From: Chloroflexota bacterium
Lineage (GTDB): Bacteria; Chloroflexota; Anaerolineae; Promineifilales; Promineifilaceae
Assembly: GCA_024277135.1 (NCBI GenBank)
Contig: JAJRVV010000102.1
Coordinates: forward strand, 22,885 to 86,884
Direction of reading: 5' to 3'
Length of the DNA: 64,000 bases
The notes under the pieces are model-generated. The model saw nothing but the letters and a program-made list of their open reading frames with translations. It was not told the DNA's origin and searched no databases. How positions within the stretch are numbered: the first letter of the stretch is position 1; each line of letters opens with the position of its first letter. This document shows positions 5,820 through 63,434 of this stretch, one piece after another. Made by a program: the position numbers and the translations under genes.

Positions 5820-6586
5820 TATTCTGCCCTCACAAATTCGTCGTCGTCCTGCATCAGTCGCTCGGCCAGTTTTGGATCGCCCAGGTAAGCCTCGATCACC
5901 TTCTCATTATTGGCGACTTCTTCCGGGGTGCCTTCAGCAATTTGACAGCCGTAATCCAGCACAATGATCCGCTCCGACACGTTCATCACGGCGTGCATCA
6001 CATGCTCAATCATGATGATGGTGATGCCTCGGTTCCGAATTTTACGCACGATTTCGACCATCCCGGCGATTTCAGAGGGATTCAACCCGGCCAGCACTTC
6101 ATCCAACAGCATGAGATACGGTCGTGACGCCAATGCCCGCGCCATCTCCAGCCGCTTTTTCTGACCCACGTTCAAACTGCTGGCTAACTGGTCAGCCCGA
6201 TCCGCCAAACCAACAAACTCCATCACTTCCTCGGCGATGTCGCCCGCTTTGCCCAAGGAGTGATTTTCCCGGCCAAAGCAAGCGCCCACCATCACATTTT
6301 CGCGGACGGAGATTTCGTTTAACGGCCGTACAATTTGGTGCGTCCGGGCCAACCCGGCGCGGGCCATCTCATACGTCTTCATCCCGGCCGTTTGCTTGCC
6401 ATTAAACAACACCCGGCCCTCATTCGGCGTGTACACCCCATTAATCACGTTAAACAGCGTCGTCTTCCCCGCCCCATTCGGGCCAATCAATCCCAAAATC
6501 TGGCCTTGCGGCAAATCAAACGTCACATCCGTCAACGCTTGCAGGCCGCCAAACAGTTTACTTACGCCTTCAACCTGCAAAATCAT
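5819..6586 (-). CDS. livG: Branched-chain amino-acid ABC transporter ATP-binding protein
   Basis: GPNGAGKTTLFNVINGVYTP, LNVGQKKRLEMARAL, LLDEVLAGLNPSE. Confidence 0.92.
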   Translation of the reverse strand: MILQVEGVSKLFGGLQALTDVTFDLPQGQILGLIGPNGAGKTTLFNVINGVYTPNEGRVLFNGKQTAGMKTYEMARAGLARTHQIVRPLNEISVRENVMVGACFGRENHSLGKAGDIAEEVMEFVGLADRADQLASSLNVGQKKRLEMARALASRPYLMLLDEVLAGLNPSEIAGMVEIVRKIRNRGITIIMIEHVMHAVMNVSERIIVLDYGCQIAEGTPEEVANNEKVIEAYLGDPKLAERLMQDDDEFVRAE

Positions 6587-8408: not shown

Positions 8409-8427
8409 TCGATCCTCCTTCATAAAA

Positions 8428-8460
8428 ATCCCCGTAGGCACAATAAGCGCCTACGGGGAT
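8428..8460 (-). promoter_or_regulatory. Stem-loop between substrate-binding protein and permease genes of the liv operon
   Basis: ATCCCCGTAGGC-9 nt-GCCTACGGGGAT, 12-bp perfect arms in the 8442-8481 gap / livH 5' end. Confidence 0.7.
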
Positions 8461-8481
8461 CAAGGCGGGTCAAGTCATACC

Positions 8482-18219: not shown

Positions 18220-21200
18220 CTACTGTCTCAGAACAACCGGCAGGTAAACCGTGTAGGCGCCAGGCTCCGCACTGGGCAAGCCCACATCGTCTGTCGGGTC
18301 TTCGCCAGGAACCAGCATCGGTTGGCCCCGCGCCCGGCCGCTGGGGCGAGCAATGAGCAAGGGCGTCGTCGTCGAGACGGTGGGGATTACTTCTAATGTG
18401 TAGAGGGAAAGGGTGGCAAAGCCCTCGACTTCAATCTGGTAGACGCCGTCCATCGCCGCCGTAAACGACACTTCATCCACTGTGCTGGCCAAAGAATCGT
18501 TGTAGCTACTGCCCGCCGACGTGCTGTCCGGGTTCCACACATACAGATCGGCGTCGCCGGCAAGGGAGGTCAGACGCACCCGCAACCCGTCGCCCGCATT
18601 CAAGCGAACGCGATAGATATATACCTGCCCCTCAACGATCTCCGCCTGATCCGGCATGTAGTTTATCAGCTGACTGCCGGGCGTCGGCGACACATTGCCG
18701 GCGCCGTCCGCCACCCACGCTTTGATATAATGTGCGCCGGGCGACGGCCGTAACTGCCACAGATAATCCACACTCGCCTGAGCATACGGCAGCCAATCAC
18801 TCACCTGCACCGGAACCCAATCCTTGATACTCTGCACAAACTCAAATTCCACATAGATGACGCCAATCACATCACTGGCGGGCTGCAAACTGCGCAAAGC
18901 CGAGTCAACCGCGCTGATATTCAACGCCACCTGCCGATCATTGGTTGTTTGAGCGCCGCCATTCACCGTAAAACTGATCACCGAAGGCGGCGTCGTGTCC
19001 GGCAGCGATGGCAACACCGTCACCGTGCGCGTCACCACATTATTCATCTCATTGGTTTCAACCACAGAATCGCCTGAATCAATGACAGCATAAAGCGTGT
19101 AAACGCCGGGCGCGGCCGGCTGCCACGGAACCGGCAGCGTCGAACCTTTATCGCCTGGATCAATCAAGGGAACACTCCCCAGACCAATAAACGCGCCCCC
19201 TGCCTGCGGATCGCCATCCCAGAAAGCCACCTTGACATTGGCCAGGGGCGTTTGGCCGCTGGCCCGGTGAACCCGCAGCCCAATCAACGGCGTCACCGCC
19301 GCGCCGGCGCGAATCGTGGGCGGCTGCGCCCAAAAGTCCAGCGTCTGGGCATACAGATCGTCTAACGACGCCGCATCTACCGATTCATAAGCCATCGGCA
19401 GTTGCGCCGAAGTCTGGTTTGGGTTGACAACTGTGAGCGTGTAAACTCCTGGCGGCGTGTTAATGGGCACAATCGCCCGCAGATGATAGGGAGATAACAA
19501 GGCAATCCCTTGCAATGGAATCACCGTCGGAGCCGCCGCGCCAAACGACCGACCCAAAAACCCGCCAGTTTCCAGCGTGACCGAAATACCCGGCGCAAAG
19601 TTCACGCCATAGATGTCCAGCGTCACCGGCACGTCATTCGGCCCTAACGGCGGCCAACTGTCGAACAGCACTGGCGGCGTCGGTTCTACCACGACAAAGG
19701 CATTGAGCAGCATGTCAGATGCGCCGTCAGGGTTCACCACTTCCAGATCATATATACCCGATGTCATCCCCGAAGGCACAATGGCTTGCAGTTGTTTAGG
19801 GCTGATGAAAGTGATGGATTGCAAGAGTGTGCCGCCCAGACTAAGCACAGCCCCATTTTGGAAGTTAGCGCCTAAAACGGTCACAGACGTTGACTGATCG
19901 TTTGTTCCTGAATCCGGCAGAATCGCAACCAGGAAGACTTGAGCCTGGTCTGTCACCGTCGTTTGCACGCCGCTTATATCGTTCTGTGGGTTTATATCTA
20001 TCTCATTGGCGTCTACCACAGCGTAATTCACAATATCCCGGACGACAGTGGGCGTCACCCACAGAGTGATGGTGATACTCTCACCGGCGATCATGCCGCC
20101 CAAATTGCATATCAAATCTCCGGCATTGGTCAGGTTGCAGTTTTGAGCGCCAAAGAGCGCGTTAGGCAGTACACTGAACGGCAAGGCATCGTACAAGATC
20201 ACCCCCGTCGCCGCATCCGGGCCGTTATTGGTGACGGTCAACGTGTAAACGAGCATCTGGCCGACCTGCACCGGATCGGGGGCGGCGATTTTTTGTACGC
20301 TCATGTCGGCCACACCAGAGGGGTACTGCACCTGGAATTCGCTAAAGGCGGCGTTGTCCTGCCGGAATGGGTCGGCGTCGGAGATGGGGTTGGTACTGGT
20401 GATGACCACCTGGTTCACCAGAATTGAGCCGCTGCGAGCAGTGTCGCTCACCAACGCCGTGATCAGGATTTCATCAAACGCCCCGGCGCCAATCGGCACC
20501 AGGCGGAAGCCCAATTGATTCCCTTGAACCGTGTCCGGTACGATGGGGCAGTTTCCGCACGAAGGCCAGATCGCGGACACAAATTCTAGATCGTCCGGCA
20601 AGGTGTCGGTGATCCAGACATCGCCCATTGTGCCCCACCACCATTCGTTGCCGCCTTCACGATTACTCCAATGGACATTAAAGGTGATGAGTTCGCCGGG
20701 CAGCGGGATACCGGCCACAAATTCTTTACTCACGGCCAAATCCGGGCCGGTTCCTAGAATGAAACTATCCAGATTGTCAAGAGGGGTGGGGTCGCCAGAC
20801 GGCCGCATCACACGCACATAATTATCAAACACCAAACCAGCGGCCAATGGGCCAGAACCGGGCACTTCGGCAGTGAAGTCGAACCGGGCCGCTTCGCCGG
20901 GATACAAGGCATCAAACGTAACCGTCAATTGATTGCTGGCCGCGAGATCGGCCCATGACCAGAAGAAAGGCCAATCGCTGTTCACGCCGCCCAGCAACAC
21001 CATCGAGGCCGGATACGTATCCGTCACCACCACGTTGTTGACGGGCGCATCGCCCACATTCTCGACGAAAACGTTATACCAGACGGCCCGCGTTCCTGGG
21101 CCGTTATCCACCCAACCGCCTTCTTTGCGGACACGCAAGTTCGGCCCCGGCGGGTAAACCTGCTCCACCCACACAGCCACATTGTCATCATAAGTTACTT

Positions 21201-24200
21201 CGCCGGTCAGCGGCACAACTTCAGCGGTGTTGGTCAGCGCCGTCCCCGGCGCGGTCGAATTATTGATCCCTAACTGCACATCCAACGCAGCGCCGGCGCC
21301 GGCGTCCAATGCGCCCACATCCCACACCACAAAACCCGTCCCGGAAATGACGGGCACAGCTTGCACCGGCCCGGTATCCGTTTGCAGCCAGGCGTCCTGG
21401 AATGTGGTACCCATGGGCAGGGTGTCCGTCACCCAAACCGGGGCCGCCACCGGGATGTTGCCGCTGTTGGCCACACTGATGTTGTAATTGATCACGCCGC
21501 CTGGAACCAGATCGCCGCCATTCCATTGCTTTTTCACGTCGAGGTTGAGACGAGGAACGCCTGCATTCAACACCAGGGTCGTTTGGTTATCGCCGGCGTC
21601 CAGATCGTTGCTGGATGTGATGACGGCCGTATTCGTGATCGGCGTTCCCGGAGTGATGACCGGAGACAGCGTCACCTGCACAAAAATCGTCCAACACGTA
21701 CCCGCATCCACCGTGGGTCGGGTCACGACCAATTGGTTCGGCCCGCTGGACAGTTCCGACCAGCCAGGGATATTGGCCCACCAAGCAACCAGCGTTGTTT
21801 CGGCGGGCAGCGTATCGGTCAACGTCACCGGCGCGCTGCCTGTGGCTCCGTAGTTGCAGGCATCCACCGTGTACACAAAATCGTACCCAGGCGCCGGGTC
21901 TGGCGTCCACGACCCTTTGGTCACGTAAACATGGGTGTCGTTGGCGATGGTCATGGTCGTCCAATCTACTGTATTGTCCCCAGGATTGGGGTCTACTTCA
22001 TTGGAACTGATGACGGCCGTATTCGTCAACACCGTCCCCGGCGCTACCCCGGCCGACACATCCACAAACACGTCAAAGAACCCATTCTCGCCCGGTGAAA
22101 GCGAACCCATATCCCAAGAAACCACATTGCCAGCCACCGTTGATGGTACGCCGGTTGTGTCAGTGATATATGTCATATCGGCCGGTAAAACATCGGTGAT
22201 GAGGACATTATTGGCAATAGCGCCACCGTTATTTGCATACGTCACATTGTAGCTGTAACCGCCGCCAGCCGTGGGCTGACCCGCGCTGGTTTTACCCACC
22301 ACCAAATCAGGGGCCGCTTCCACAAAGACATTGTAAACGATGTCCCCATCCGGCTCGAAGTAAGCGACGCCTACCTCCTGGCCGGGCTTTATGTCCCACT
22401 CTGTGAATGGATCCCAACTGCAATTGTAGGCAGCGACGCCATCCGGCAAAACCGTACCCGTCCGGGACGGAGCGCCGCCAGGCGACCCCCATGCCTGACA
22501 TTCGATATTCAACAGCGATGGCATCCACCAGGGGGCAGAGATAGCGCCGCTGATGCTGTCTGTGGCTGAATCCACCGCGCCGCTGATTGCGCCGATTTGA
22601 ACGGCAGCCGTCTGGCCGGTATCCAGCCGGGCAAACACCCAATCACCAGACTGAATATCGGGTCGAATGCCGAAATCCCAACCCGGCCAATCGGTGCTAA
22701 AGCCAGTATCGCCGCCCCACCAGGGCACAGGTCCGGTGGTGAGTACGGCCGTCGCCTTAATCGTCACCGAACTGCTATCCGTCACCGTAATCCAGACCGT
22801 ATGCCCCGGCTCGTACCGCCCCTCAACCCAATCATGTCCGTAATTCACGCCCAACAAAAAGTCGAGCGCCCGGTATGGTTTATGGAATGTCACGGCGGCC
22901 GCGTTAATCACAGTCTGGTAGCGCACCTCGCCATCGCCGCCCGGCGGAATGTCGGTGAAATTAGCCAGAAAATTACCGGCGCTATCTGTGGTGGTGTTGA
23001 CAATCTCGCCGCTGTTCGCTAATTCAACCGCCACCGGCTCCGCATTTAAATTATCAATCCGGCCCCAAACCTGGTCAGTCGTGGAACTGGCCGTCGCCGT
23101 AAAGGGCGTGGGAATGGTAATAATCACCGGCTGAATCCCGGCCCCGGCCGTCACCGTCACCACATCCCCCGGCAGGAAGGGCTGCGGGAATGTCCAATCA
23201 AAATAGCCGGAGAACGGGAATACCGTTTGTGTGTATGCGGTGGTGATGGACACCGGATCAATCGTTGTATCGCCATAAATATGACCGCTGTCCACATCAA
23301 TATCCACCCAATTTATCTCCAACCCAGAAGTGGCTACATCTACAAACACATTATCCGACAGATCGATATCCGCCCCGCCGGTAATTTCCACGGTGTTGGT
23401 AAAGGTCTGGAAAGGCAAGCCGATCAGACCGGGATCTAAATCCACATCAAAACGCGCGTAAGCGAAATCCCCCGGCGCCAAATTGGGGAAATTCCAACTG
23501 ACGATATTGCCTGAAGAGAAGAATCCAGGCGGCGTGATACTGCCCCAAACCGGCTCAAATTCTTGAAAACCGGTGGCGGTAGTCGAGATCGGCAGCGTAT
23601 CCGTCACCAGTACGTTTGTGCTTGAAACAGTTCCTATGTTTTTGACGGCGATCTCATACCGCAGTTGGCTGTTGCCCATCCACTGACCTTGCTTGGTAAC
23701 TTTCAAATTAGGGCCGGGTGGATTGAGCCACAGGGAAACACAGGCCGTATTGTCAACAGGGGTCACATCCGTCGCCAGATTGGCAATGTCTATGCAATTG
23801 GTAACTGGCACGGTCAAGCTGGCAGTGTTGGTGATGTTCATGTCTATATGGAACCAGGCGGCTTCGCCCGGCTGCAGCACGCCCAAATTCCAAACCAACT
23901 GGTTGCCCAGGACGGCTGGCGGCGGGAATGGGTCGTTTTGCTGCGGCTGGCCGCCGCCCCAAAACGCGCCGGCATAACTCAGTTCGGGCGGGAGGGTGTC
24001 GGTAATGATGACGGGCACGGCCGTATTGCCATTGTTGGCGTAATTGACAAAGTAGTTGATCCAACCGCCGGGGACAGGCACGGCCGTATGCGCCGATTTA
24101 TTGATCCACACGTCTTCACGCGGTGGCGAGACGACGGCCGTGCTATCCTCAAATAAATTATTGCTGAGATCAACGTCCCCCGGCGCGTCAATTTCCACTC

Positions 24201-25098
24201 GATTCACCAGCGCCGTCCCCACCGCCGCCGCCGGGTCCGCCAGCAGCCGCAAACGAAGCTGACCATTCATTTGCCCCGGCAGCCCGGCCGGCGCATAAAA
24301 CACAACTTCATTCGTCGTCGTCATCACCATCGTCCACAGCCCCGGCCAATCCATCGCCTGCCAGCTAACCAGCGTGGTGGAGAGCGGCAAGGTATCGGTC
24401 AACACTGCCGGGCCAGAAGCGGCGCCGCCCATATTGCTGTAGTTGATGTCGTACACAACCGTTTGACTTGGCGTCGGATCTGCCGGCATCGGCCCCTTAT
24501 TTACCTGCAAATCAACCACGTCAAAATTAACCGGCGCATTGCCCGTACAAACCGAATTGTTCAGGAGATCAGTATCGCCCGGCGTGGTGGAACTGATTCC
24601 TGCGCAATTTATGTCTAGTTGTGACGAGGGGAAACCGGGATCAATGTTAAGCGCCACATAAAAGGTTTCATTCGTGTTCGTCAGCAAAACGCCCAACGTC
24701 CAGGTCACAATGTTGCCCGGCCCTACTACAGGCGATATCCCTAACGAATCATAGGCATAGGTGGTAGACAAGGGCAGGGTATCCGTGAGAATGACGTTGT
24801 CGGCCTGCGCTCCGCCCTGGTTCCCATAATTTATTTGGTAGATGTACACACCGCCGGGAACGGCCGCGCCTGACGTCCCCATCTTTTGCACGTAGATGTC
24901 GTGGGCGGCAGCCACGCGGGCGGCCACGCTCCCGGCGCCTGCTTCGGCCAGAGGTAGAGAGACGGGTTCCGGCTGCCACGTTTCCAATGCTGACAGGGAA
25001 ACAGCTTCGGCAGACGGTACGGAGAAGGCTGTCACCAGGAACAATAAACCAGACAGCGCACCAATGATAACCAAGATTAACAACAATGAACGACGCAT
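18220..25098 (-). CDS. Giant secreted protein (2292 aa) with about 10 DUF11-type repeats, IPT/TIG, CARDB-like and PPC-like domains
   Basis: Signal peptide MRRSLLLILVIIGALSGLLFLVTAFSVPSAEA; recurrent ITDTLPxxTTYV...NTAVI...DNN modules; C-terminus AYTVYLPVVLRQ. Confidence 0.9.
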   Translation of the reverse strand: MRRSLLLILVIIGALSGLLFLVTAFSVPSAEAVSLSALETWQPEPVSLPLAEAGAGSVAARVAAAHDIYVQKMGTSGAAVPGGVYIYQINYGNQGGAQADNVILTDTLPLSTTYAYDSLGISPVVGPGNIVTWTLGVLLTNTNETFYVALNIDPGFPSSQLDINCAGISSTTPGDTDLLNNSVCTGNAPVNFDVVDLQVNKGPMPADPTPSQTVVYDINYSNMGGAASGPAVLTDTLPLSTTLVSWQAMDWPGLWTMVMTTTNEVVFYAPAGLPGQMNGQLRLRLLADPAAAVGTALVNRVEIDAPGDVDLSNNLFEDSTAVVSPPREDVWINKSAHTAVPVPGGWINYFVNYANNGNTAVPVIITDTLPPELSYAGAFWGGGQPQQNDPFPPPAVLGNQLVWNLGVLQPGEAAWFHIDMNITNTASLTVPVTNCIDIANLATDVTPVDNTACVSLWLNPPGPNLKVTKQGQWMGNSQLRYEIAVKNIGTVSSTNVLVTDTLPISTTATGFQEFEPVWGSITPPGFFSSGNIVSWNFPNLAPGDFAYARFDVDLDPGLIGLPFQTFTNTVEITGGADIDLSDNVFVDVATSGLEINWVDIDVDSGHIYGDTTIDPVSITTAYTQTVFPFSGYFDWTFPQPFLPGDVVTVTAGAGIQPVIITIPTPFTATASSTTDQVWGRIDNLNAEPVAVELANSGEIVNTTTDSAGNFLANFTDIPPGGDGEVRYQTVINAAAVTFHKPYRALDFLLGVNYGHDWVEGRYEPGHTVWITVTDSSSVTIKATAVLTTGPVPWWGGDTGFSTDWPGWDFGIRPDIQSGDWVFARLDTGQTAAVQIGAISGAVDSATDSISGAISAPWWMPSLLNIECQAWGSPGGAPSRTGTVLPDGVAAYNCSWDPFTEWDIKPGQEVGVAYFEPDGDIVYNVFVEAAPDLVVGKTSAGQPTAGGGYSYNVTYANNGGAIANNVLITDVLPADMTYITDTTGVPSTVAGNVVSWDMGSLSPGENGFFDVFVDVSAGVAPGTVLTNTAVISSNEVDPNPGDNTVDWTTMTIANDTHVYVTKGSWTPDPAPGYDFVYTVDACNYGATGSAPVTLTDTLPAETTLVAWWANIPGWSELSSGPNQLVVTRPTVDAGTCWTIFVQVTLSPVITPGTPITNTAVITSSNDLDAGDNQTTLVLNAGVPRLNLDVKKQWNGGDLVPGGVINYNISVANSGNIPVAAPVWVTDTLPMGTTFQDAWLQTDTGPVQAVPVISGTGFVVWDVGALDAGAGAALDVQLGINNSTAPGTALTNTAEVVPLTGEVTYDDNVAVWVEQVYPPGPNLRVRKEGGWVDNGPGTRAVWYNVFVENVGDAPVNNVVVTDTYPASMVLLGGVNSDWPFFWSWADLAASNQLTVTFDALYPGEAARFDFTAEVPGSGPLAAGLVFDNYVRVMRPSGDPTPLDNLDSFILGTGPDLAVSKEFVAGIPLPGELITFNVHWSNREGGNEWWWGTMGDVWITDTLPDDLEFVSAIWPSCGNCPIVPDTVQGNQLGFRLVPIGAGAFDEILITALVSDTARSGSILVNQVVITSTNPISDADPFRQDNAAFSEFQVQYPSGVADMSVQKIAAPDPVQVGQMLVYTLTVTNNGPDAATGVILYDALPFSVLPNALFGAQNCNLTNAGDLICNLGGMIAGESITITLWVTPTVVRDIVNYAVVDANEIDINPQNDISGVQTTVTDQAQVFLVAILPDSGTNDQSTSVTVLGANFQNGAVLSLGGTLLQSITFISPKQLQAIVPSGMTSGIYDLEVVNPDGASDMLLNAFVVVEPTPPVLFDSWPPLGPNDVPVTLDIYGVNFAPGISVTLETGGFLGRSFGAAAPTVIPLQGIALLSPYHLRAIVPINTPPGVYTLTVVNPNQTSAQLPMAYESVDAASLDDLYAQTLDFWAQPPTIRAGAAVTPLIGLRVHRASGQTPLANVKVAFWDGDPQAGGAFIGLGSVPLIDPGDKGSTLPVPWQPAAPGVYTLYAVIDSGDSVVETNEMNNVVTRTVTVLPSLPDTTPPSVISFTVNGGAQTTNDRQVALNISAVDSALRSLQPASDVIGVIYVEFEFVQSIKDWVPVQVSDWLPYAQASVDYLWQLRPSPGAHYIKAWVADGAGNVSPTPGSQLINYMPDQAEIVEGQVYIYRVRLNAGDGLRVRLTSLAGDADLYVWNPDSTSAGSSYNDSLASTVDEVSFTAAMDGVYQIEVEGFATLSLYTLEVIPTVSTTTPLLIARPSGRARGQPMLVPGEDPTDDVGLPSAEPGAYTVYLPVVLRQ

Positions 25099-47907: not shown

Positions 47908-48648
47908 ATGTCACATCCCTTTCCCCCAGTTTTGATCGAAAAGTTAAAAACAGCGCAGCGGGTGGCCGTCCTCACCGGGGCCGGTGTCTCGGCCGAAAGC
48001 GGCGTGCCCACCTTCCGTGAAGCCCAAACCGGCCTGTGGGCGCAGTATGACCCGCAGGAGTTGGCGACGCCGCGCGCCTTCCGCCAAAACCCGAAGCTGG
48101 TGTGGGAATGGTATGCGTGGCGGCGGCAGTTGGCGGCAAAAGCGGAACCCAATCCCGGCCATTTGGCTCTGGCGGAGATGGGAAAGCGCGTCCCTCACTT
48201 CACGCTGATCACGCAAAATGTGGATGGCCTGCATCCTCGTGCCGGCAGCCGACATGTGGTGGCGCTGCACGGCGACATCACCCGCACCAAATGTTTTGCC
48301 GACGGCCGTCCCGTCGCCGTCTGGCCCGAAACCGACCAAATCCCGCCCCGCTGTCCCCGGTGTGATGGCCTGCTCCGCCCCGACGTGGTTTGGTTTGGCG
48401 AGGGGTTGCCGCCGGATGCGCTGGGTACGGCCGTGTCCGCCGCCCGCAGTTGCGACCTATTTTTCTCCATCGGCACCTCCGCCCTCGTCCAGCCCGCCGC
48501 CTCCCTGCCCATCGAAGCCTTAAACAGCGGCGCCTTCGTCGTCGAAATCAACCTCAACGAAACCCCGCTGACGCCGCACATCCATCTGCTGCTCAAAGGC
48601 GCTTCAGGCGTGATACTGCCCAAGCTCATCCAGGCGGTTTGGGCGTAA
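47908..48648 (+). CDS. NAD-dependent protein deacylase, Sir2 family
   Basis: VAVLTGAGVSAESGVPTFREAQTGLW; LITQNVDGLHPRAGSRHVVALHGDI; CPRCDGLLRPDVVWFGEGLP. Confidence 0.94.
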   Translation: MSHPFPPVLIEKLKTAQRVAVLTGAGVSAESGVPTFREAQTGLWAQYDPQELATPRAFRQNPKLVWEWYAWRRQLAAKAEPNPGHLALAEMGKRVPHFTLITQNVDGLHPRAGSRHVVALHGDITRTKCFADGRPVAVWPETDQIPPRCPRCDGLLRPDVVWFGEGLPPDALGTAVSAARSCDLFFSIGTSALVQPAASLPIEALNSGAFVVEINLNETPLTPHIHLLLKGASGVILPKLIQAVWA

Positions 48649-48682
48649 AAGACATCGATTTCTTAGAGAAATCGGATGTCTT
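48649..48682. repeat. Dispersed AGACATC(C)GATTTCT palindrome, copy 2 (intergenic Sir2/sortase)
   Basis: AAGACATCGATTTCT-TAG-AGAAATCGGATGTCTT starting at the Sir2 stop codon; one base missing in the left arm. Confidence 0.85.
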
Positions 48683-48698
48683 AGTTTATACTACCCGC

Positions 48699-49487
48699 AT
48701 GGCTGAACAAGACCCCTCTGAACCCCGCGTGCCGTTGAGCGTGGTATTGATGTCGGTAGGCGGCATTATTTTGGCGGCGGTGTTGCTGATTTGGGCATTG
48801 GTTCCGGCCGCCATGCCCAGAGGCGTGTTTCGGGTGGTGACGGCCGTATTCCCCAACAACAGCCCCCCCCTGCCCACCCCCGTCCCCGCCGCCAGCCTGC
48901 CCGATTTAGCCCCCCAGCCCGGCGGCATAGTCGCCTTGCTGCCCGAAACCCCCATCGAACCGGAATCGCTGCCAGAATACTTCGTCAACGCGGCCGACGC
49001 CATCGTCGCCGACCCGCTGGCCGGCCAGCCCATTCGCATCGTCATCCCCCAGATTGATTTAGATGCGCCGGTCGTCGAGAGCCAACTCACGCCCATTGAG
49101 AGCGACGGCCAAACCTATTACCAATGGCAGGTTCCCAACGGCTTCATGGCCGGGTGGCACAATAGTTCCGCGCTTTTGGGCCAAAAGGGGAACACCGTCC
49201 TCAACGGACATCACAACATCTTTGGCGAACTGTTTCGGGATTTGATTGACCTGGAACAAGGGGCGGAAATCGTCATTTACGACGACAAACGCGCCTTCAC
49301 CTATCGGGTCACGGAGAAATGGATTTTGCCAGAGCGGGGCCAACCGCTGGAAGTACGTTTAGCCAACGCCCGCTGGATGGCCGCCGCCAATGATGAGCGC
49401 ATCACCCTGGTCACCTGCTGGCCTTACACTGACAACTCCCACCGGCTCATCATCGTCGCCAAACCAGTGGGCGCGGCCGGGTCCTAA
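48699..49487 (+). CDS. Sortase family protein
   Basis: MAEQDPSEP...TM...IRIVIPQIDLDAPV...NTVLNGHHNIFGELFRDLIDLEQGAEIVIYDDKRAFTYRVTEKWIL...ITLVTCWPYTDNSHRLIIVAKPV with catalytic His/Cys/Arg. Confidence 0.85.
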   Translation: MAEQDPSEPRVPLSVVLMSVGGIILAAVLLIWALVPAAMPRGVFRVVTAVFPNNSPPLPTPVPAASLPDLAPQPGGIVALLPETPIEPESLPEYFVNAADAIVADPLAGQPIRIVIPQIDLDAPVVESQLTPIESDGQTYYQWQVPNGFMAGWHNSSALLGQKGNTVLNGHHNIFGELFRDLIDLEQGAEIVIYDDKRAFTYRVTEKWILPERGQPLEVRLANARWMAAANDERITLVTCWPYTDNSHRLIIVAKPVGAAGS

Positions 49488-52293: not shown

Positions 52294-55200
52294 TTACGGT
52301 TTCATGACGACGGGCAAGTAGATGTATTGCCGGTTGACGGTAGTGGTTAAGGTAACGGCCGTCTTGACAGTGGGCGCCGTCAACGAAGCGGCGGTGAAGG
52401 TAATCACCTCCACCGACGCTGCGCCGGCGGCCGGCACCGTGACGGTGACGAATATCCCCGCCGCCGCTCCCGGAGCCAGCGTCACGTCAGCGGGGACGAT
52501 CACTATCCACTCAGCATTGGACACGGCCGTAAACGTGAACGTGTCGGTGAAATTGCCGGTGTTGGTGATGGTGTGACTGTACACCGCCTCCTGCCCCGGA
52601 TCGGCCGTTTGCGCTCCATCTGGCGTCAAACTTACCCCCACCACATTCAAGATAGTAGTTCTGGCCGTCAGGTCGGGGATGGAGAAGGTGTCGGCGATAT
52701 TGCCGGAGACGGCCGTTTGGTTCACCACATCAAATGGATTGCCCGGCGTACCCGCCACCTGAACCTGATAGTTAATATGCGCCTCATCTCCCCCGGCCAG
52801 GCTGCCGGTCCAAATGATGCTGTTTGTGTTAGTGTCATACACAACCCCGCCGACGCCATCCAGCCCAACAGAACCGTTTACATACGCCGTGTTTGCCGGA
52901 ATCGCATCCACTAAAGTAATGGTCGAGCCGGTTCCATCATCGCCGCTGTTCGTCAGCCAGATGTCATAGGTCAATGTATCCCCCACCCAGGCGGTGGACT
53001 GATCAACCCCTTTGAACGAGGCGGCTAGACTAAGCGGCGACTGCGTCCGGCCCGCGCCGCCAACCACCGGCTCCAAGCCAATATCCAGGTGAACCGGTGT
53101 TGTGATCACCGTTAATACCTGGCTCTGGAACGGTTGATAACCGGGGGCTGATGCTTCAATTCGATATTGACCGGATGGAGTGAGGAAGCTGTAATATCCG
53201 GCCGTCGGCACTTCATCCGCCACCGATGGATCCGTGGCTTGCGGATTCACCTGCCCATACAGATAGGCGGGCCATTCCTGCCAGGTATCGTTCAGCTTGA
53301 CAAAAGCAGTCACGGTGGCGTTTAGAACGAGTGCGTCAGTAATGGGCGATCCGGCGTCCACCAGCGACTGATCATACACAAAGCCGTCCGGATCAATCAA
53401 GATGAAGATGAGCAGTTCCGAATAATCCACACCATCGCACTCCCACTTCACCCAGATTTCATAACTACTATGCGGCTCAGCCAACCAGACTCGGTATTGC
53501 GTCAACCAATCCGATGGTCCGGCCACTGTTGTCGTGATCGCTGGGATGTTGTAGGTGAACAGGCCGTTTTCCGTCACCTCCAGATAAGCGGTCGGCGTCA
53601 CCGAACAAGGCAGCGCTACCTCAACATCCAGAGTGCGGTGGGCCAGCGTCCGAATTTCGGCGCGGACGCTGCCGCTGGCGATGCCGGCGCCGTTGGCTGA
53701 AATGTCTACAAGGTCGGTGTCCAGCGGCAGGTTGTCGGCGACGACGATGGTGACGGCGTTGGAGTAATTGCTGGTCAGCCCCGCTTTGCTGGCCTGGGCG
53801 ACGATGGCGTAAGTGCCGGTGACCGACAAAGTCGGTTCGATGCTGAATGTGCCGCTCACTGTAGCGGTGGTACTCATCACCCAGGTAGCTGAGCCGCCGG
53901 ATAGGTCGTAGAAATCTACGACTGAGCCGGAGGGAGCCGACCCGCTGAAGGTGGGCGTGTTATCGGTGGTTCCCTGGGTAGGCCGCAAGATGACGGGAGC
54001 CAGGATGTCGGCGACGGTTTCAACGTGGCTGTCGCTGTTGTTGCTAAAACTGGTTTCGGGGCCGCCGTAGTTGATGACGGCCGTGTTCGTCACCGTCCCC
54101 ACATTTGTGATTTCGGCCGTCACCTGAATCTGGCCCGACCATTGATTGCCGGGCAGCGTGGGCAGCGTCCAGGTAACGACAGAACCGTCCATGCCATCCG
54201 GCGGCGGGCTGGCGCTCCAGTAGCGCACTTCCGGCGGCAGGGTGTCGGTGATGACGGCCCCCGAAGCCGGCGCGCCGCCCCAGTTGGCGTAGCCGATGTA
54301 ATAATCAAACATCTCGCCTACGGCCGGTTGGCCGACGCCATTTTTCGTCACCGCCAAATCCACATCTTCGCGTACCGTGATTTGGTGGATAAAGCCATTG
54401 TTGCCCGGCTGCGTGTCCGCCTGGTCGCCGCCAATCTGGACGCTGTTGCTGATGATTGCGCCATGCGTGGCCGTCGCCGGAATTTGCACGGCGATGGCGA
54501 TAGTTTGCTGCGGGCTGCCGCCGGGCAAATCGCCCAGGTTCCAGAGCAGGTTGGTTCCGGTGATGGCGTCTGGCGGCGGGTCGGCGCTGACGTAGGCAAC
54601 GTTGCCGGACAGCGTGTCCAGCAGCGCAGCGTTGGTCACAGTGAACGCGCCCGCGTTGCGGTAGCTGACGACATAGGTGATGGCGCTGCCCGGCTGCGGC
54701 GCGGGGCTGTCCGGGCTGAGCTGCTTGCGCACTGTCAAGTCATACGGGTTGGCTGGCATCTCCCATTCGGCGATGTTCCAGGTGTAGGGCGTGTTTTGCG
54801 CCGATGGCGGGCTGAAGTTGAGCAGGATGGGGGTTGAGGCCACGCGAGCGGCCCAGAAATGGCTCACCCAAATGGGCATGTCTTGAGAAAACTCGGCCAT
54901 TTGATCATCGTAGTCGGCTTGCAGCGCGGCCGCGTCCAATTCGGTGCGGGCGGCCTCAAGGAAAGCGTCGTTGGCGCTGTTGCGCCAGCCGGTATTGTAG
55001 AGGTTCCAGGAGTAATTGTTGTAAGCGGAGGCGATTTGACTGCTGTGGAAGAGTACATCGCCCATGGGGTCATACCGGTTGTCGAATCCCCAACCTAACG
55101 TGTAGGAATCGAGACGGCCGTACCGGATATCCTCCAGCATATTCCCCCAATCCGCATCAACCACCTGCACATCCACCCCAACGAGAGCCATATCCGCCTG

Positions 55201-58200
55201 GAATTGGAAGGCCAACGCCTGTCGAGAGATAGAGCCGGTGGGGTAGACGAGATCAAATTGCAGTTCCACCCCTCCTTTGTCGCGGATGCCGTTCCCATTG
55301 GTGTCTGCCCACCCAGCGGCGGTTAGCTGAGCGGCAGCGGCGGCCAGATCGGGGAAGTAGCTGGTGAAGGGAGCGGCCAGCGGGTGGCCGGGCGGCAGCC
55401 AGGAAGCGTCTCCCGGCGCGAGCGTAACGCCGGGCAGCGCCGCCGCAATCTGATTGACGGCGGCGGGACGGTCAAAGGCGCGGTAGATCGCCTGGCGCAC
55501 GGCCGTCTCCTGGAAGATGGGGTTGCGCAGATTAGGCATAATGGCGTCGAACCGGTTATACATAGACGTGAAAACGCGGATGTCGAACGGAGCCAGATCG
55601 TCGGGCCAGCCATCGCCGACCAGCGTCACTTCGGCGCTGCCCTCCGCCAGCGGCCAGAAGTTGTCGCCGGTGAAGAGGAAGCGGATTTCGGGGATGCGGG
55701 GATAGCCCAACCCCCGTTTGTGGTAGTTGGGGTTGGCGCGCAGGTCGAGATGCGCGCCGGGAATCCATTCCTCAACCACGTAGGGGCCGTTGCCCACCGG
55801 ATTGTGGGCGAACAGGCTGCCGTAACGGACGTCGAAGGGATGCGTACCGCTGAGGACGTGTTCCGGCAGGGGGTAGAGGATGGCGCCCAGGTAGGCGGGC
55901 GGGAATTGGCGCGGTTTGTAGGTGAGGACGGCCGTCAACGCATCCGGCGTATCCACCCGTTCAATCTTGCGGGCGGTTGAGATGAATGCCAGATAGCCGT
56001 CCGACTGCGGGTGCGGCCGGATCATCTGCTCCCAGGCAAAACGGATGTCGGCGGAAGTGAGCGGCGCGCCGTCTGACCAGAGCAGCCCCGGTTTGAGGGT
56101 GTAGGTGACGACGAGTTGATCGCCATGAACGACCGCGCCGCCATTGGCCGGGGTGGGAACCTGAACCAGCAATTCGCTGTACCAGTTGCCGCCGTCGTCC
56201 AACTGCGCCAGCGGCTCGAACAGGGCGGGTAAAATCTGATCCACAGTCCGCAGGTAAGCGCCCTGGCCGGAGGTGTAGGGGGTGAAGTCGGAGGCAGGAT
56301 TGGCGCGGACGGTGAACGGCCGAGGCGGAGGCGTCCCCTGCGTCATCGTCAGGTTCAGGGTGTAGCTGCCGCCGGAAACGGCCGTCAACGTTTGGGTCAC
56401 GCTTTGGTAATCGTATGCGCCGCAGTCGCCGACGGCCGTGATGATCACATCCCCCGGCCAGAGGCGGTCAATGGCGTAACTGCCGTTTTCATCGGTGCAG
56501 CCGTTCCACTCTGCGGCCGTCTCCCGGTTGTTCACGGCGTCTACCGTCAACGCCGATATCTGAATGCCGCCCAAAGGCTGTCCTGTCCCCGCATCTGTCA
56601 CCTGGCCGCTAACCGAGGCGGGGCGTTCCAGCGTCATGGTGATGAAGGTGGAAGCGGGCAGGGGGTTGATGGAGAGCGGGGCGCCGTTGGCAGCGGTACG
56701 GCCGTTGGGATACACGCCCAACACCGTCTCCCAGAACTCATCAGAGATAAAGGTCACGATATGATCGCCCACCGGCAGATCAATGGTGAAGTAGCCGTTG
56801 GTTTGCGAGTAACCGTACCAGACGCCGGAATCATTAAACGCGCTGACCCGCACCCCTTCAATCGGGGTGGAGCCGTCCAGTTCATACACATATCCTTCCA
56901 ACTGCCCGGCCAGCGGCGCTTCAAAGTCCAGGCCGGTGATGGTCTGGCCGCTTTCCAGGCGGATGCGCTCCGCCCAATCCGAATCATGACCGCCATAGAG
57001 AGTATGGGCGCGGTCGCCGCCCCACCATCCCGTCTCGATAGTATAGTCGCCCGGCGGCAAATTTGTGACGGTGTAATAGCCGCTGGCGTCCGTTTGCGCG
57101 CCGCTGCCCATCTCATCGGCATGGACATCGAGATTGAGGTTGGCGACGGGAACGCCGCCATCGGTGACACGGCCGGCGATGGTCGCGCCCGGCCCTAAGT
57201 CAAAGTCCCAATGGGCGTTTTCGGCCAAGTCGAAATCATGCGCCTGTTTCTGAGCCAGATCAGTGCCCCACGGCCGCGCCGCCACCGCCCAACGACTATC
57301 ATAAATTGGGGGAACCGGAATCTGGTAATAGCCGCTGGCGTCCGTCGGCCGTTCTGTGCCATAACCATACTCAATCGTTTGCCAGACACCAATCTGTATC
57401 CCCGCCGCCGAGTAGCCGGGGGGGACGGTGACTGTGCCGGTGATCAGCGCGCCGGAATTCAAGCCAAAATCAACGCCGGTGACGGTAATGCCGGACGTGA
57501 CCGTGATCAACGCCGCATCCTGGATGTGATAAACATCACTGTAATACTCATTCACCAGGAATTGTCCATTACAGTCAGCGCAGGCGTAGACGACGTATGC
57601 TCCCGGCGGCAGCGGGCCGAGCAGGTACTTTCCGTTAACATCGGTGTCAGCGTCTTGAACCCAGTTGCTGCACCAGGGGCAGTTGAGATCGGGAATCAAC
57701 GCGCCCATGCGCAGATTGGATACCGGCGCGCCGCTGGTTTCGTCCAGCGCGGTTCCGGCGATGTAACTGCCGCCGCCCAACGCGAAATTAATGTTGCCCA
57801 CATTGGGCGAGCCGCTGTTGACCGGGATCATGTCTGCCTGGTCATAGAAAAACTTGCCATCGTAAAACTCGCCGACGTAGCTGTTAGGTTGATCCAAACA
57901 CCAGTTCCAGCCATCGGCGGCGGAGACGACGTAATCGCCATAGGGCAGGCCGTTGATCACGTACACGCCGTTGGCGTCGGTGCAGACGCCCATGCCGCCC
58001 TGACCGGGCAGATCGGCGTTGATGTTAATATTTTCCAGGGGCAGACCGCTGTTTTCATCGGTGACGATGCCGGTGATGACGCCGCCCGGTTGGAGGGGGA
58101 AATCAATGTCAGTGACGGTGCCGCCGCCGGAGATGTTGACCGGTGTGGCCGCGTCATAGTTGACGGCTTGATCATAGTATTGGCGGGCGTATCCGGCCGG

Positions 58201-59700
58201 AATACTGTTGCTGTCATCCACCCGAACCCGGTAATCCTCATCCGGCAGGCCGCCGATGACGTAGTAGCCGTTGGCGTCGCTGCTGGCGTTTCCCCAATAC
58301 CATTCGTTGTTGCTGTCGTAGGCGCTGGCGGAGACGTTAACATCGGCCAGGGGAGCGCCGCTGCCGGCGTCGGTGACGCGGCCGGTGATGACGCCGCCCA
58401 GGTCAAGGGTGAAGTTGACGCCGGTGTACAGGTCGCTCCCGGCGGTGAGGGTGAAGGGAACGGCCTGATCCAGAAGCAGGGTCTCGGAGTAGTATTCGCG
58501 GACGTAGAGGGATTGTTGATCCAGACACCAGTTCCAGTCGCCGCCGGCGCGGATTCTGTAGGTATCGTAGGGGAGACGGCCGAGGGTGTACATGCCGTTA
58601 GCGTCGGTGCAGGTTCCCATGCCGCCGCGCTCGATGTCTACGTTGATGTTCGCCAGCGGAGTGAAGCCGTCGCTGGCGTACACTATGCCGGTGATGTCGC
58701 CGCCGGGTTCCAGAGCAAAGTCGATATTGCCCACTGCGCCGCCGCCGATGATGGCGACGCGGTCAGCCTGCCAATGGTAAAGATGAGCGTTGTAGTATTG
58801 GCGGGCGTAGCCGGGGGGCATGTTGTTGGGGTCGTCAATGCGGACGCGATAATCGGCGTCTATCAGGCTGGTGATGGTGTAGTAGCCGCTGCTGTCGCTC
58901 CACCCGCCACGGCCGTTGCCGCCATTATCATACTCATCGGCATAAACCCAGGTGGCGCTGATGGGCAGGCTGGCAGCGGCGTCTGTAACCTGGCCGGTGA
59001 TGACGCCGCCCATGCTCATGGTGAAGTCAATGCCGGTGACGGTATCTTGGGTGATGGTGATGAGGAGCGGGGCCGCCAGATTGATGTCCGTCGTCTCTGA
59101 ATAGTATTCAATCAGATAAACAGAGTCCTGGTTGATGCACCAGTTCCAATCCCGGCTGGCGACGACTTTGTGATTGCCGTAGGGGATGCCCTGGATGGCG
59201 TAACGGCCGTTGGCGTCGGTACAAGTTCCATACCAGCCTTGTTCCAGGTCTACGTTGATATTTTCCAATGGGGTAATACCATCATCAGCGTAAACTGTGC
59301 CGCTGATGACGCCGCCGGGCTGGGCGACGAAGTTGACGCCGGTGATGACGGCGGCTCCGGTGATGGCGACGGCGTCGGCTGATTGGCCGTCTACTTGCCC
59401 GTTGTACCATTGGTTGGCCCACGGATAGCCGGCATTGAGCCTGAGCGCGTAATCCTCATCCGGCAGACCGCCTAGATAGTAGCTGGCGTCGGAGAGGCTG
59501 TAGATGTTACCGGCGTAGTTGAAGTCGGGCAGGATAAAAATCTCAACATTGCCGTTGCTCAACGGCGTTGAACCATCGCTTTCAAACAAACTGCCGCTGA
59601 TGACGCCGTAGTCGGGGGTGGCGATACGGCCGTTGACGGATTGGCTGCCGATGATGTCCACCCGGCCCACGAAGGGTTCGCCAAAGGGGGCGTTGTTCAT
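52294..59700 (-). CDS. Giant surface protein: alternating carboxypeptidase-regulatory/Cna-B-like modules, embedded family-5 extracellular solute-binding domain, then DUF11-like modules (coding frame continues upstream to a stop at 59881)
   Basis: GGVITGxVTDxxSGxPLxNIxV...CTDANGxYxIxGLPYGxY repeats; SBP_bac_5-like VTYTLKPGLLWSDGAPLTSADIRFAWEQMI...PVGNGPYVVEEWIPGAHLDLRANPNYHKRGLGYP; C-terminus QYIYLPVVMKP. Confidence 0.88.
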   Translation of the reverse strand: MNNAPFGEPFVGRVDIIGSQSVNGRIATPDYGVISGSLFESDGSTPLSNGNVEIFILPDFNYAGNIYSLSDASYYLGGLPDEDYALRLNAGYPWANQWYNGQVDGQSADAVAITGAAVITGVNFVAQPGGVISGTVYADDGITPLENINVDLEQGWYGTCTDANGRYAIQGIPYGNHKVVASRDWNWCINQDSVYLIEYYSETTDINLAAPLLITITQDTVTGIDFTMSMGGVITGQVTDAAASLPISATWVYADEYDNGGNGRGGWSDSSGYYTITSLIDADYRVRIDDPNNMPPGYARQYYNAHLYHWQADRVAIIGGGAVGNIDFALEPGGDITGIVYASDGFTPLANINVDIERGGMGTCTDANGMYTLGRLPYDTYRIRAGGDWNWCLDQQSLYVREYYSETLLLDQAVPFTLTAGSDLYTGVNFTLDLGGVITGRVTDAGSGAPLADVNVSASAYDSNNEWYWGNASSDANGYYVIGGLPDEDYRVRVDDSNSIPAGYARQYYDQAVNYDAATPVNISGGGTVTDIDFPLQPGGVITGIVTDENSGLPLENININADLPGQGGMGVCTDANGVYVINGLPYGDYVVSAADGWNWCLDQPNSYVGEFYDGKFFYDQADMIPVNSGSPNVGNINFALGGGSYIAGTALDETSGAPVSNLRMGALIPDLNCPWCSNWVQDADTDVNGKYLLGPLPPGAYVVYACADCNGQFLVNEYYSDVYHIQDAALITVTSGITVTGVDFGLNSGALITGTVTVPPGYSAAGIQIGVWQTIEYGYGTERPTDASGYYQIPVPPIYDSRWAVAARPWGTDLAQKQAHDFDLAENAHWDFDLGPGATIAGRVTDGGVPVANLNLDVHADEMGSGAQTDASGYYTVTNLPPGDYTIETGWWGGDRAHTLYGGHDSDWAERIRLESGQTITGLDFEAPLAGQLEGYVYELDGSTPIEGVRVSAFNDSGVWYGYSQTNGYFTIDLPVGDHIVTFISDEFWETVLGVYPNGRTAANGAPLSINPLPASTFITMTLERPASVSGQVTDAGTGQPLGGIQISALTVDAVNNRETAAEWNGCTDENGSYAIDRLWPGDVIITAVGDCGAYDYQSVTQTLTAVSGGSYTLNLTMTQGTPPPRPFTVRANPASDFTPYTSGQGAYLRTVDQILPALFEPLAQLDDGGNWYSELLVQVPTPANGGAVVHGDQLVVTYTLKPGLLWSDGAPLTSADIRFAWEQMIRPHPQSDGYLAFISTARKIERVDTPDALTAVLTYKPRQFPPAYLGAILYPLPEHVLSGTHPFDVRYGSLFAHNPVGNGPYVVEEWIPGAHLDLRANPNYHKRGLGYPRIPEIRFLFTGDNFWPLAEGSAEVTLVGDGWPDDLAPFDIRVFTSMYNRFDAIMPNLRNPIFQETAVRQAIYRAFDRPAAVNQIAAALPGVTLAPGDASWLPPGHPLAAPFTSYFPDLAAAAAQLTAAGWADTNGNGIRDKGGVELQFDLVYPTGSISRQALAFQFQADMALVGVDVQVVDADWGNMLEDIRYGRLDSYTLGWGFDNRYDPMGDVLFHSSQIASAYNNYSWNLYNTGWRNSANDAFLEAARTELDAAALQADYDDQMAEFSQDMPIWVSHFWAARVASTPILLNFSPPSAQNTPYTWNIAEWEMPANPYDLTVRKQLSPDSPAPQPGSAITYVVSYRNAGAFTVTNAALLDTLSGNVAYVSADPPPDAITGTNLLWNLGDLPGGSPQQTIAIAVQIPATATHGAIISNSVQIGGDQADTQPGNNGFIHQITVREDVDLAVTKNGVGQPAVGEMFDYYIGYANWGGAPASGAVITDTLPPEVRYWSASPPPDGMDGSVVTWTLPTLPGNQWSGQIQVTAEITNVGTVTNTAVINYGGPETSFSNNSDSHVETVADILAPVILRPTQGTTDNTPTFSGSAPSGSVVDFYDLSGGSATWVMSTTATVSGTFSIEPTLSVTGTYAIVAQASKAGLTSNYSNAVTIVVADNLPLDTDLVDISANGAGIASGSVRAEIRTLAHRTLDVEVALPCSVTPTAYLEVTENGLFTYNIPAITTTVAGPSDWLTQYRVWLAEPHSSYEIWVKWECDGVDYSELLIFILIDPDGFVYDQSLVDAGSPITDALVLNATVTAFVKLNDTWQEWPAYLYGQVNPQATDPSVADEVPTAGYYSFLTPSGQYRIEASAPGYQPFQSQVLTVITTPVHLDIGLEPVVGGAGRTQSPLSLAASFKGVDQSTAWVGDTLTYDIWLTNSGDDGTGSTITLVDAIPANTAYVNGSVGLDGVGGVVYDTNTNSIIWTGSLAGGDEAHINYQVQVAGTPGNPFDVVNQTAVSGNIADTFSIPDLTARTTILNVVGVSLTPDGAQTADPGQEAVYSHTITNTGNFTDTFTFTAVSNAEWIVIVPADVTLAPGAAAGIFVTVTVPAAGAASVEVITFTAASLTAPTVKTAVTLTTTVNRQYIYLPVVMKP

Positions 59701-59880
59701 ATCGTAGGTGTAAGATGCGCCAGAGTTGAGGTTGATGGGGCCGTCGCTGGCCAGGTAATCGCCATTGGGCCAGTAGAAGTCGAATGTATAGCCGGCGCTG
59801 ATGGTTCCGGTGTTGGTGATGACGAAGGCGGATGAGAAACCGTTGCCGCTGTCGTTGCGATGAAGCGTGGACAGGGTGAT

Positions 59881-60363
59881 TTAATATCCGGCCGCGCGCC
59901 GGGGGACAACGGCGGGGGCTGGGGAGCGGTATGGTTGGCGAGTGACGGATTGGAGAGATCGGGGAGCGGGGGAGCGAGGGGGCAGGGACATGACGACCCG
60001 CGGCGGCGGAGAGAAGGTGTCTGGCGATGATGAGGGGCGAGGCGGCCGATTGGTGAGCCAGGCCGGAGGAGGTTGATCCTGGGAATGGTTGGCCGGTCGT
60101 TCTATAACAGGCTGATCAAAAATGTTTTCGATAGACTGCTCTGGGGAACGGCCGTCAGCCGCTTGAGTTGGTGGATCAGCGGCGCTTTCCGAGGCGCGGT
60201 CTGGCGCTGACGCGGGGGTGAAATGGGTCACGGCCGTTTCCGGCGACAAACTCTCCGGATCAAAAACAGACGCCTGGGCGGGCGTCTGTCCAAATGAAAA
60301 GATAAAGCCAAGAATACAAACTGCAAACAGAACAGGAACGAAAAGGACCGCAAAACGCCGCAT
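59881..60363 (-). CDS. Signal-peptide-bearing N-terminal ORF in the same frame as the giant protein, ending at TAA 59881-59883
   Basis: RBS GGAGG before ATG at 60363; MRRFAVLFVPVLFAVCILGFIFSFGQTPAQA; Pro-rich linker ending VVPRRAAGY-stop. Confidence 0.65.
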   Translation of the reverse strand: MRRFAVLFVPVLFAVCILGFIFSFGQTPAQASVFDPESLSPETAVTHFTPASAPDRASESAADPPTQAADGRSPEQSIENIFDQPVIERPANHSQDQPPPAWLTNRPPRPSSSPDTFSPPPRVVMSLPPRSPAPRSLQSVTRQPYRSPAPAVVPRRAAGY

Positions 60364-60719
60364 CACACACCTCCGGTTCACAATGAAGTCAAATATTCAG
60401 TTGGTTTGACGAACGTCGAGAAAGATTGGCAATGTTGTAAAGAAGACAGTGACAAGATTTAGCAATGATAATCCAACATCCGGCGTCCCCTCGGATCAAA
60501 CCCCGATTACAAAAGCACTTTACATTCTAGCAGAAGAAGCGGCAAATGTCACCTCTGGTTTACCGGTTCCGGTCTGGAATATCTGCCAAATTTCATGACT
60601 TTTGGTGAGATGATAAAATAGCTTTATGATACTGTCTTCCCCGTGATGGGAATGGCATCGCTTAGAATCCAGGAGTCGGCGTGTGGCGCAGCCTGCCTCC
60701 CTTTGGAGAAATTGATCTG

Positions 60720-63434
60720 ATGGATAGAAAAGAAACGGCCGAACAGCAACGCTTAAAAGACAAACGGTGGCAAAAATGGGGGCCCTATCTCAGCGAACGC
60801 GCCTGGGGCACGGTGCGCGAGGATTACAGCGCCAGCGGCGAAGCGTGGGAGTACTTCCCCCACGACCACGCCCGCAGCCGCGCCTACCGCTGGAACGAAG
60901 ACGGCATCGGCGGCGTTTGCGACGACCAACAGACGATTTGTATGGCGCTGGCTTTCTGGAACGGCCGTGATCCCATCCTCAAGGAGCGTTTCTTCGGCCT
61001 GACCGGCAACGAGGGCAACCACGGCGAGGACGTGAAGGAGATCTACTTCTACCTGGACAACACCCCCACCCATTCCTACATGAAGATGCTGTACAAATAT
61101 CCGCAGGCAGAGTTTCCCTATGCCGACCTGGTGGCGGAGAACGGCCGTCGCCCGCGCCAGGCGTTTGAGTACGAGTTGCTAGATTCGCTACACGAAGCGT
61201 TTGAGCAAGGACGCTACTTTGACATCACCATCGAGTACGCCAAAGCGGACGCGGAAGATATTTTGTGCCGGGTGACGGCCGTCAATCGCGGCCCTGACCC
61301 GGCTCCACTGCATATCCTGCCCCACCTCTGGTATCGCAACACTTGGTCGTGGGGGGATGGGGGCATAAGACATCCGATTTCTCAAGCGACCTCCGGTCGC
61401 CGAAATCGGATGTCTGAGACGCCGACTGCCTACACCAACCACCCTGTTTTAGGCGAAAGGTGGTGGAGTGTGGACAGCGGCGCATTGATGTTCACCGAAA
61501 ACGAATCGAACAAGGAGCGGCTGTGGGGCGCGGCCAACGATTCCACCTACGTCAAGGATGGCATTCACGAGGCGGTGGTGAACGGCAGACATCCGATTTT
61601 TCAAAGAAATCGGATGTCTACGACTAACCCCGACCAGGGGAGTAAGGTGGCGGCGCATTGTACGGCCGTCATCCCCCCTGGCGGCAGTTTCACCATCCGC
61701 GCGCGGTTTAACAATCAACAGCCAATAGTTAACAGCCAACAATCAACGGGGCCGTTTGTGGGTTTTGATGCGATTTTTGAGCAGCGGATTGCCGAGGCGG
61801 ATGAATTTTATGCGGCCGTGCAGCCCCCCGCCCTGAGCGGCGATGAGCGCAACGTGCAGCGGCAAGCGTTCGCCGGGCTGCTGTGGAGCAAGCAGTTTTA
61901 CCATTACCACGTGCAAAAATGGCTGGATGGGGACCCGGCTGGGCCGCCGCCGCCCGATTCACGCAAATACGGCCGTAACCGCGACTGGTTTCACCTGGAC
62001 AACGCCGACGTCATCTCCATGCCCGACAAGTGGGAGTATCCCTGGTACGCCACCTGGGACACGGCCTTCCACATGATCCCGATGGCGCTGATTGACCCCG
62101 ATTTCGCCAAAGCGCAGCTCATCCTCTTCCTGCGCGAATGGTACATGCACCCCAACGGCCAATTGCCCGCCTACGAATGGGCCTTGGGAGACGCCAACCC
62201 GCCCGTCCACGCCTGGGCTTGCTGGCGCGTCTACAAAATTGACCGCAATATAAAAGGAAGAGCCGACGCCGAATTTTTGGAGCGCGTCTTCCACAAACTG
62301 CTGCTCAACTTCACCTGGTGGGTCAATCGCAAGGACGCCGACGGCAACAACGTCTTCCAGGGCGGCTTTTTGGGGCTGGACAACATCGGCGTCTTCGACC
62401 GCTCCGCCCCGCTGCCCACCGGCGGCCACATGGAGCAGGCGGATGGTACCGCCTGGATGGGGATGTACTGCCTCAACATGATGGCCATCGCCCTGGAACT
62501 GTCCCGCACCAAACCTGCCTACGAAGATGTGGCGACCAAATTCTTTGAGCATTTCATTTACATTGCCAACGCCATCAACAAATCGTGTGGCGAACAGGGG
62601 TTATGGGACGAAAAAGATGGCTTTTACTACGACATGGTACACACGCCGGACGGCCGTTTCTTCCCCCTCAAAATCCGCTCCCTGATCGGCCTCATCCCCC
62701 TCTTTGCCGTGGAGACGCTGGAGCCGGAGGCGCTGGACGCGCTGCCTAATTTTCGCGGCCGCATGGAATGGTTCATCGAAAACCGGCCCGATTTAGCGCG
62801 TAACATCCATTCGCTGATCGAACCGGGGGTTGACGGCCGCCGCCTCCTCTCCCTCGTCAACCAGGAGCAGCTGACGCTGGTGCTTAAGCGGATGCTCGAC
62901 CCCGGCCAATTCCTTTCCGACTACGGCCTGCGCTCTCTCTCCAAACGGCATGAAGCGGAACCGTTCGCGCTGCATCTGGACGGCCGTACCTACACCGTCC
63001 GCTACGAACCGGCCGAATCGCAGACGGGCATGTTTGGCGGCAACTCCAACTGGCGCGGTCCCATCTGGTTCCCGGTCAACTATTTGATGATCGAATCGCT
63101 GCAAAAGTACGCCCACTACTGCGGCGACGCCTTCAAAGTGCAGCTGCCCCGCCGCTCCGGCAACTGGATGACGCTGGATGAGGCGGCGGCTGATTTGTCC
63201 GGCCGTCTCGTCCGGTTGTTTTTAAGGGGTGGGGACGGCCGTCGCCCCATCTACGGCGGTCTGGACATCTTCCAAAACGATCCCCACTGGCGCGACCACA
63301 TCCTCTTTTACGAATACTTCCACGGCGACAATGGCGCCGGGCTAGGGGCCAGTCACCAAACCGGTTGGACGGCGCTGGTGGCAAAGCTGATCCAATACAG
63401 CGGCAAACCCCCTGTCCAGGCAGGAAGCGGGTGA
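60720..63434 (+). CDS. GH63-like glucosidase / MGH1-like glycoside hydrolase
   Basis: [52 protein letters not shown]...[27 protein letters not shown]. Confidence 0.88.
61368..61415. repeat. Dispersed palindrome copy 3, in-frame inside the GH63-like CDS
   Basis: AGACATCCGATTTC-20 nt (nested GCGACC-TCC-GGTCGC)-GAAATCGGATGTCT, 14-bp perfect arms; encodes [18 protein letters not shown]. Confidence 0.95.
61587..61619. repeat. Dispersed palindrome copy 4, in-frame inside the GH63-like CDS
   Basis: AGACATCCGATTT-7 nt-AAATCGGATGTCT, 13-bp perfect arms; encodes [12 protein letters not shown]. Confidence 0.95.

Follow-up and report, generated by a model that had tools for sequence, protein, structure and literature searches.

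What does the receptor domain of a nutrient importer do in the middle of a giant, repeat-built protein? Oligopeptide-type SBP_bac_5 domains are normally free-standing receptors of nutrient importers, whereas a first-pass annotation of the DNA studied here (a stretch of 64,000 nucleotides, called the window below) placed one between the carboxypeptidase-regulatory and DUF11 modules of a giant surface protein. The window lies on one contig (C58) of a fragmented MAG (251 contigs) of a Chloroflexota bacterium, class Anaerolineae, family Promineifilaceae. The features of the giant gene are as follows:

59884-60381 (-), 166-aa ORF with a signal peptide (MRRFAVLFVPVLFAVCILGFIF...) and a Pro/Ser-rich linker, in the same frame as the giant ORF and aligning with the N-termini of three orthologues
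59881-59883 (-), in-frame TAA between the signal-peptide ORF and the giant ORF, present in the window MAG only; the three orthologues are open here
59608-59880 (-), conserved N-terminal module, predicted by sequence only to be a beta-sandwich; 44-53% identity between window and orthologues
56323-59607 (-), 11 carboxypeptidase-regulatory/TTR-like repeats of about 100 aa each, counted by eye (PF13620, 7.4e-80; PF13715, 1.6e-43), collinear in orthologues
54757-56322 (-), complete family-5 solute-binding domain (SBP_bac_5), 522 aa (PF00496, AlphaFold2, Foldseek and PDB profile search)
54013-54756 (-), two DUF11 modules (PF01345), 53-63% identity to orthologues
52654-54012 (-), Big_13-like module, conserved mid block with a carboxypeptidase-regulatory-like part, and third DUF11 module (Pfam and orthologue alignment)
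52294-52653 (-), last Ig-like (NEW3-type) module, C-terminal tail YIYLPVVMKP and stop codon (orthologue alignment and tail scan)

The open frame (52294-59880, minus strand) comprises 2528 codons, and the giant ORF read from its first ATG at 59700 (52294-59700, minus strand) encodes 2468 aa. All three domain families named in the first-pass annotation were recognised by Pfam in this ORF: SBP_bac_5, CarboxypepD_reg (7e-80, nine stretches) and DUF11 (2e-32, three stretches). The SBP module is in frame with its carboxypeptidase-regulatory and DUF11 neighbours within the one giant ORF, and it sits in the middle of the stalk (residues about 1354-1875 of about 2695) and not at the tip.

The module runs from RPFTVRANP to TWNIAEWEM, within 10 bases of the limits proposed earlier (54760-56330), and every peptide quoted for it was found. 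It matched PF00496 with E=3e-49 and 168.5 bits, far above the curated cut-off of 32.4 bits, over profile positions 12-353 of 368; by a match exceeding this cut-off across most of the model it belongs to the SBP_bac_5 family. An AlphaFold2 model of the module alone (27-row alignment) gave a confident SBP fold (mean pLDDT 83, pTM 0.84), and a Foldseek search of PDB matched NikZ (E=1e-34) and AppA (3.5e-33) over approximately the whole length, with NikA and OppA likewise among the matches. The top TM-scores (about 0.75) were mostly to unliganded forms. A PDB profile search with the family alignment had AppA (1xoc, 3.6e-93) as its best match, with 2d5w also among the best. A domain first described as near-complete is thus complete, and model and fold matches agree on the two-lobed cluster C fold; because of the PF00496, AlphaFold2 and Foldseek results, the concern that profile models might fail to recognise an SBP fold falls away. 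In a model of the module together with both flanking modules (pTM 0.64), the linkers were of low confidence.

A survey of 35 genomes of the family yielded orthologues in three MAGs of other genera, with open frames of 2785-2814 aa and SBP domains 47-52% identical to that of the window (contigs JACSRF010000217.1, JAGOMA010000021.1 and JAHEEY010000126.1, from genomes G032, G001 and G020, respectively). The four giants align end to end, module junctions included, and have the same Pfam architecture, with a full-length two-lobed SBP fold in each. The orthologues begin with a signal peptide (by inspection) followed by repeats, and they have one more Ig-like (NEW3-type) module at the C-terminus that is absent from the window copy. 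The first-pass annotation had suggested a survey of related genomes, and in it the architecture is rare: of the 52 family genomes, 4 carried the collinear giant, and no further giant was detected in 397 genomes of the class (E<=1e-55) or 399 genomes of the phylum (E<=1e-60) when three candidates were scored for each genome.

In a 50-sequence tree, the SBP modules of the four giants formed one clade (support 100/100, stem 0.93) among stand-alone lipoprotein relatives. On the basis of these data, the reading that we prefer, at about even chances, is that, in one family of Anaerolineae, a secreted fibre protein built of repeats acquired a complete SBP domain in its middle in a single event, and that this domain is now a displayed ligand-binding module uncoupled from import. 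The orthologues would be exported via the N-terminal signal peptide, and the transthyretin-like, Ig-like and DUF11 repeats would form an elongated stalk. Far from both ends of the chain, the two lobes would close on a small ligand, peptide or peptide-like, and the bound ligand would be used either for capture close to the cell or for attaching to debris or other cells. The gene of the window strain may have an interruption at a single codon, or that codon may have been read wrongly.

The same tree contained a second giant with an SBP_bac_5 domain. This protein of 1788 aa (locus L032, 2902-8268, plus strand; contig C106 of genome G011) has seven FG-GAP stretches, Big_5, SBP_bac_5 and He_PIG, and no relative of this fusion was found in the 52 family genomes besides that in G011. 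Like the stalk giants, it is a secreted, multidomain protein that contains SBP_bac_5, comes from the same GTDB family and has a [YF]LPxx tail of similar form, but its partner domains are others and its SBP module is of another clade, pairing with the stand-alone SBP L097 (100/99). With this module outside the giant clade, the two captures look independent by their phylogeny. A broader proposal, to which we give somewhat less than an even chance, is that family-5 domains were captured independently at least twice in giants of Anaerolineae, where they would serve ligand recognition on fibres, diverge faster than the stalk and have no tie to transport; such giants would make up a class of SBP-based proteins for capture or adhesion.

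The in-frame TAA is the sole separation between the signal-peptide ORF and the giant ORF, and because it splits off the former, the giant ORF as called in the window has no export signal. The alignment of the three orthologues continues through the region that matches this TAA. Since all three are open here and the conserved N-terminal module starts 5' of the first ATG (59700), the typical protein of the family would be about 2700-2800 aa and exported. In the window copy, the TAA is either a recent nonsense mutation or an error of the consensus. That the gene of the window strain is a recent pseudogene, stopped between signal peptide and body, is a serious possibility which we nevertheless consider less probable than its opposite. 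The stop falls between the linker and the first conserved module, at a site open in three of three orthologues; that module begins upstream of the first ATG, and one C-terminal module is missing too. However, there is no further stop in 2528 codons, codon-position GC is of coding type along the whole giant ORF, and one wrong base in the MAG consensus would look identical. A pseudogene in the window can coexist with the preferred reading of a displayed binding module, as it concerns the window copy only.

Between the closest orthologues, G032 and G001, identity was 67% in the carboxypeptidase-regulatory array, 81% in the mid block and 54% in the SBP module, and the drop started around the last carboxypeptidase-regulatory repeats and ended at the DUF11 boundary. 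For this pair, dN was 0.40 in the SBP module (dS 0.92), 0.36 in the last carboxypeptidase-regulatory repeat, 0.22 in the remaining array, 0.20 in DUF11 and 0.13 in the mid block, with dS of 0.92-1.41 across modules; the SBP value thus exceeds those of the array, DUF11 and the mid block by a factor of 1.8-3. The contrast between modules was weaker in deeper orthologue pairs. A comparison of trees showed that the SBP branches were all longer than the branches for the flanking parts.

Such figures could also be expected if the domain had lost ligand binding and was kept as a structural spacer or a general interaction surface. This is an unlikely explanation, though not a negligible one. Its case is that the SBP module has the highest dN among the large modules (0.40 versus 0.13-0.22 between G032 and G001, at similar dS) and that its branches all exceed those of the flanking parts; the neighbouring last carboxypeptidase-regulatory repeat was variable as well. 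On the other hand, the full-length two-lobed fold is retained in all four giants, a two-lobed domain of 520 aa would be costly amid repeats of 100 aa, and dN/dS is well below 1, with ratios that are approximate because dS is near 1. The SBP module is under net purifying selection, and the ratio below 1 therefore indicates that its fold is maintained. Its faster evolution is compatible with both relaxed constraint and diversified recognition.

Module exchange by recombination was considered as a source of the low SBP identity between G032 and G001 and rejected: SBP trees still pair the two, with support of 99/94 in one and 96 in another. Because this pair is kept, the more economical reading is that the module evolved faster, though an exchange between close relatives is conceivable.

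It would be quite improbable, in our judgement, for the module to be still an importer receptor that hands peptides over to an Opp/Dpp permease whose gene lies at another place in the genome. The genome does have 38 matches to the BPD_transp_1 permease, and several of its SBP genes have no permease nearby, so that orphan SBPs exist. However, an Opp/Dpp receptor would be about 500-650 aa long, either a lipoprotein or free in the periplasm, with linked BPD_transp_1 permease and ATPase genes, whereas here the SBP domain is an internal module in proteins of about 2700-2800 aa, hundreds of residues from either end, with no lipid anchor, no linked permease or ATPase genes and a restricted distribution. 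The first-pass annotation had seen no opp/dpp permease adjacent to the gene; in fact, none of the 38 matches is on the entire contig. Five other SBP loci of the genome (on C107, C27, C48, C218 and C234) are close to BPD_transp_1 permeases. The statement that such domains are normally stand-alone lipoproteins also agrees with our data, as the signals of the stand-alone relatives are lipoprotein-like and permeases adjoin them at several loci. The giant gene stands alone, with a divergent glycoside-hydrolase-like gene (60681-63434), a methyltransferase and an alpha/beta hydrolase as neighbours; the orthologues have different ones (phosphoglycerate mutase, peptidase S51 and others). No ABC genes were found among the neighbours examined at the window gene and at loci L029-L031. 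A branched-chain-amino-acid-type ABC cluster (ATPase, BPD_transp_2 permease and Peripla_BP_6) is located at 5109-9864 on the minus strand of the window; it is 42 kb from the giant gene and of a different family.

An assembly chimera joining an SBP gene to a surface-protein gene, one doubt left by the first-pass annotation, has a vanishingly small probability, had nothing found in its favour and is ruled out by three independent MAGs with collinear proteins and the same in-frame junctions; because three related genera share it, the arrangement is genuine and not an assembly error.

The domain and its predicted fold are those of the cluster C/family 5 SBPs (OppA, DppA, AppA and NikA/NikZ; PF00496), but these are free-standing proteins that act as ABC-importer receptors and, among the Chloroflexota relatives, are lipoproteins, whereas the module here is internal, with no lipid anchor or linked permease. 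In the Isd haem relay, the cell wall retains binding proteins at a distance from the permease. The Zn binders ZnuF and ZnuG of Corynebacterium diphtheriae are likewise reported to reside in the cell wall, apart from their permease (PMC12445094). The folds of both systems differ from that of the SBP module, and the znu proteins are encoded with their own ABC transporter, unlike the giant gene. Use of the SBP domain outside import is already known from the non-transport fusions of SgrR/DsvR-type regulators (HTH plus SBP_bac5; PMC13060122); these act in the cytoplasm as transcription factors and carry the SBP domain at the C-terminus, without repeats or export, and the giant differs from them in this. 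DUF11 is likewise already known as a stalk domain of fibrillar adhesins (PMC9210967), which are secreted, long and repeat-built, like the giant. The orthologues have both a signal peptide and stalk-domain arrays (carboxypeptidase-regulatory, DUF11 and Ig-like), the signal of the window copy being split off by the TAA. However, the adhesive domain of fibrillar adhesins is usually N-terminal, distal to the anchor, whereas the candidate binding domain of the giant is mid-chain. No known adhesive Pfam domain was found among the matches of the giants, and SBP does not occur among the adhesive domains in the main text of that study (PMC9210967). We found no description of SBP_bac_5 within a giant repeat or surface protein in the open-access literature (most subscription journals and the domain-architecture databases were outside the scope of the search), and such a module is apparently undescribed.

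Among the proposed roles of capture, sensing and adhesion, sensing is the least likely, because a signalling domain was looked for in the giant protein and not found. If the module still binds ligand, the cluster C fold, familiar from importers and from a few regulators, would be reusable for recognition in extracellular fibres. The module would then also offer a candidate for how uncultured Chloroflexota, some from activated sludge, hold peptides, debris or cells.

The description of the protein as a giant, repeat-rich surface protein holds for its size, its repeats and the signal peptides of its relatives, while its tethering to the surface is conjectural: inspection by eye detected neither an LPXTG motif nor a transmembrane helix at the C-terminus nor, in the signal peptides, a lipobox. 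A tail scan showed that all four stalk giants share a C-terminal [YF]LPxx[MLVI] tail with the FG-GAP fusion and with a further giant of the window; the tail is possibly a sorting or attachment signal. The tails are located as follows:

52294 and 18220 (-), window
171, locus L029
5256 and 14949, locus L030
9319, locus L031
8268, locus L032

A gene with a sortase domain (PF04203, 5e-25) is located at 48390-49487 on the plus strand, 2.8 kb past the 3' end of the giant gene. The second giant of the window (18220-25098, minus strand, 2292 aa) contains at least seven DUF11 stretches, CARDB, TIG and PPC, and ends in a like C-terminal tail.
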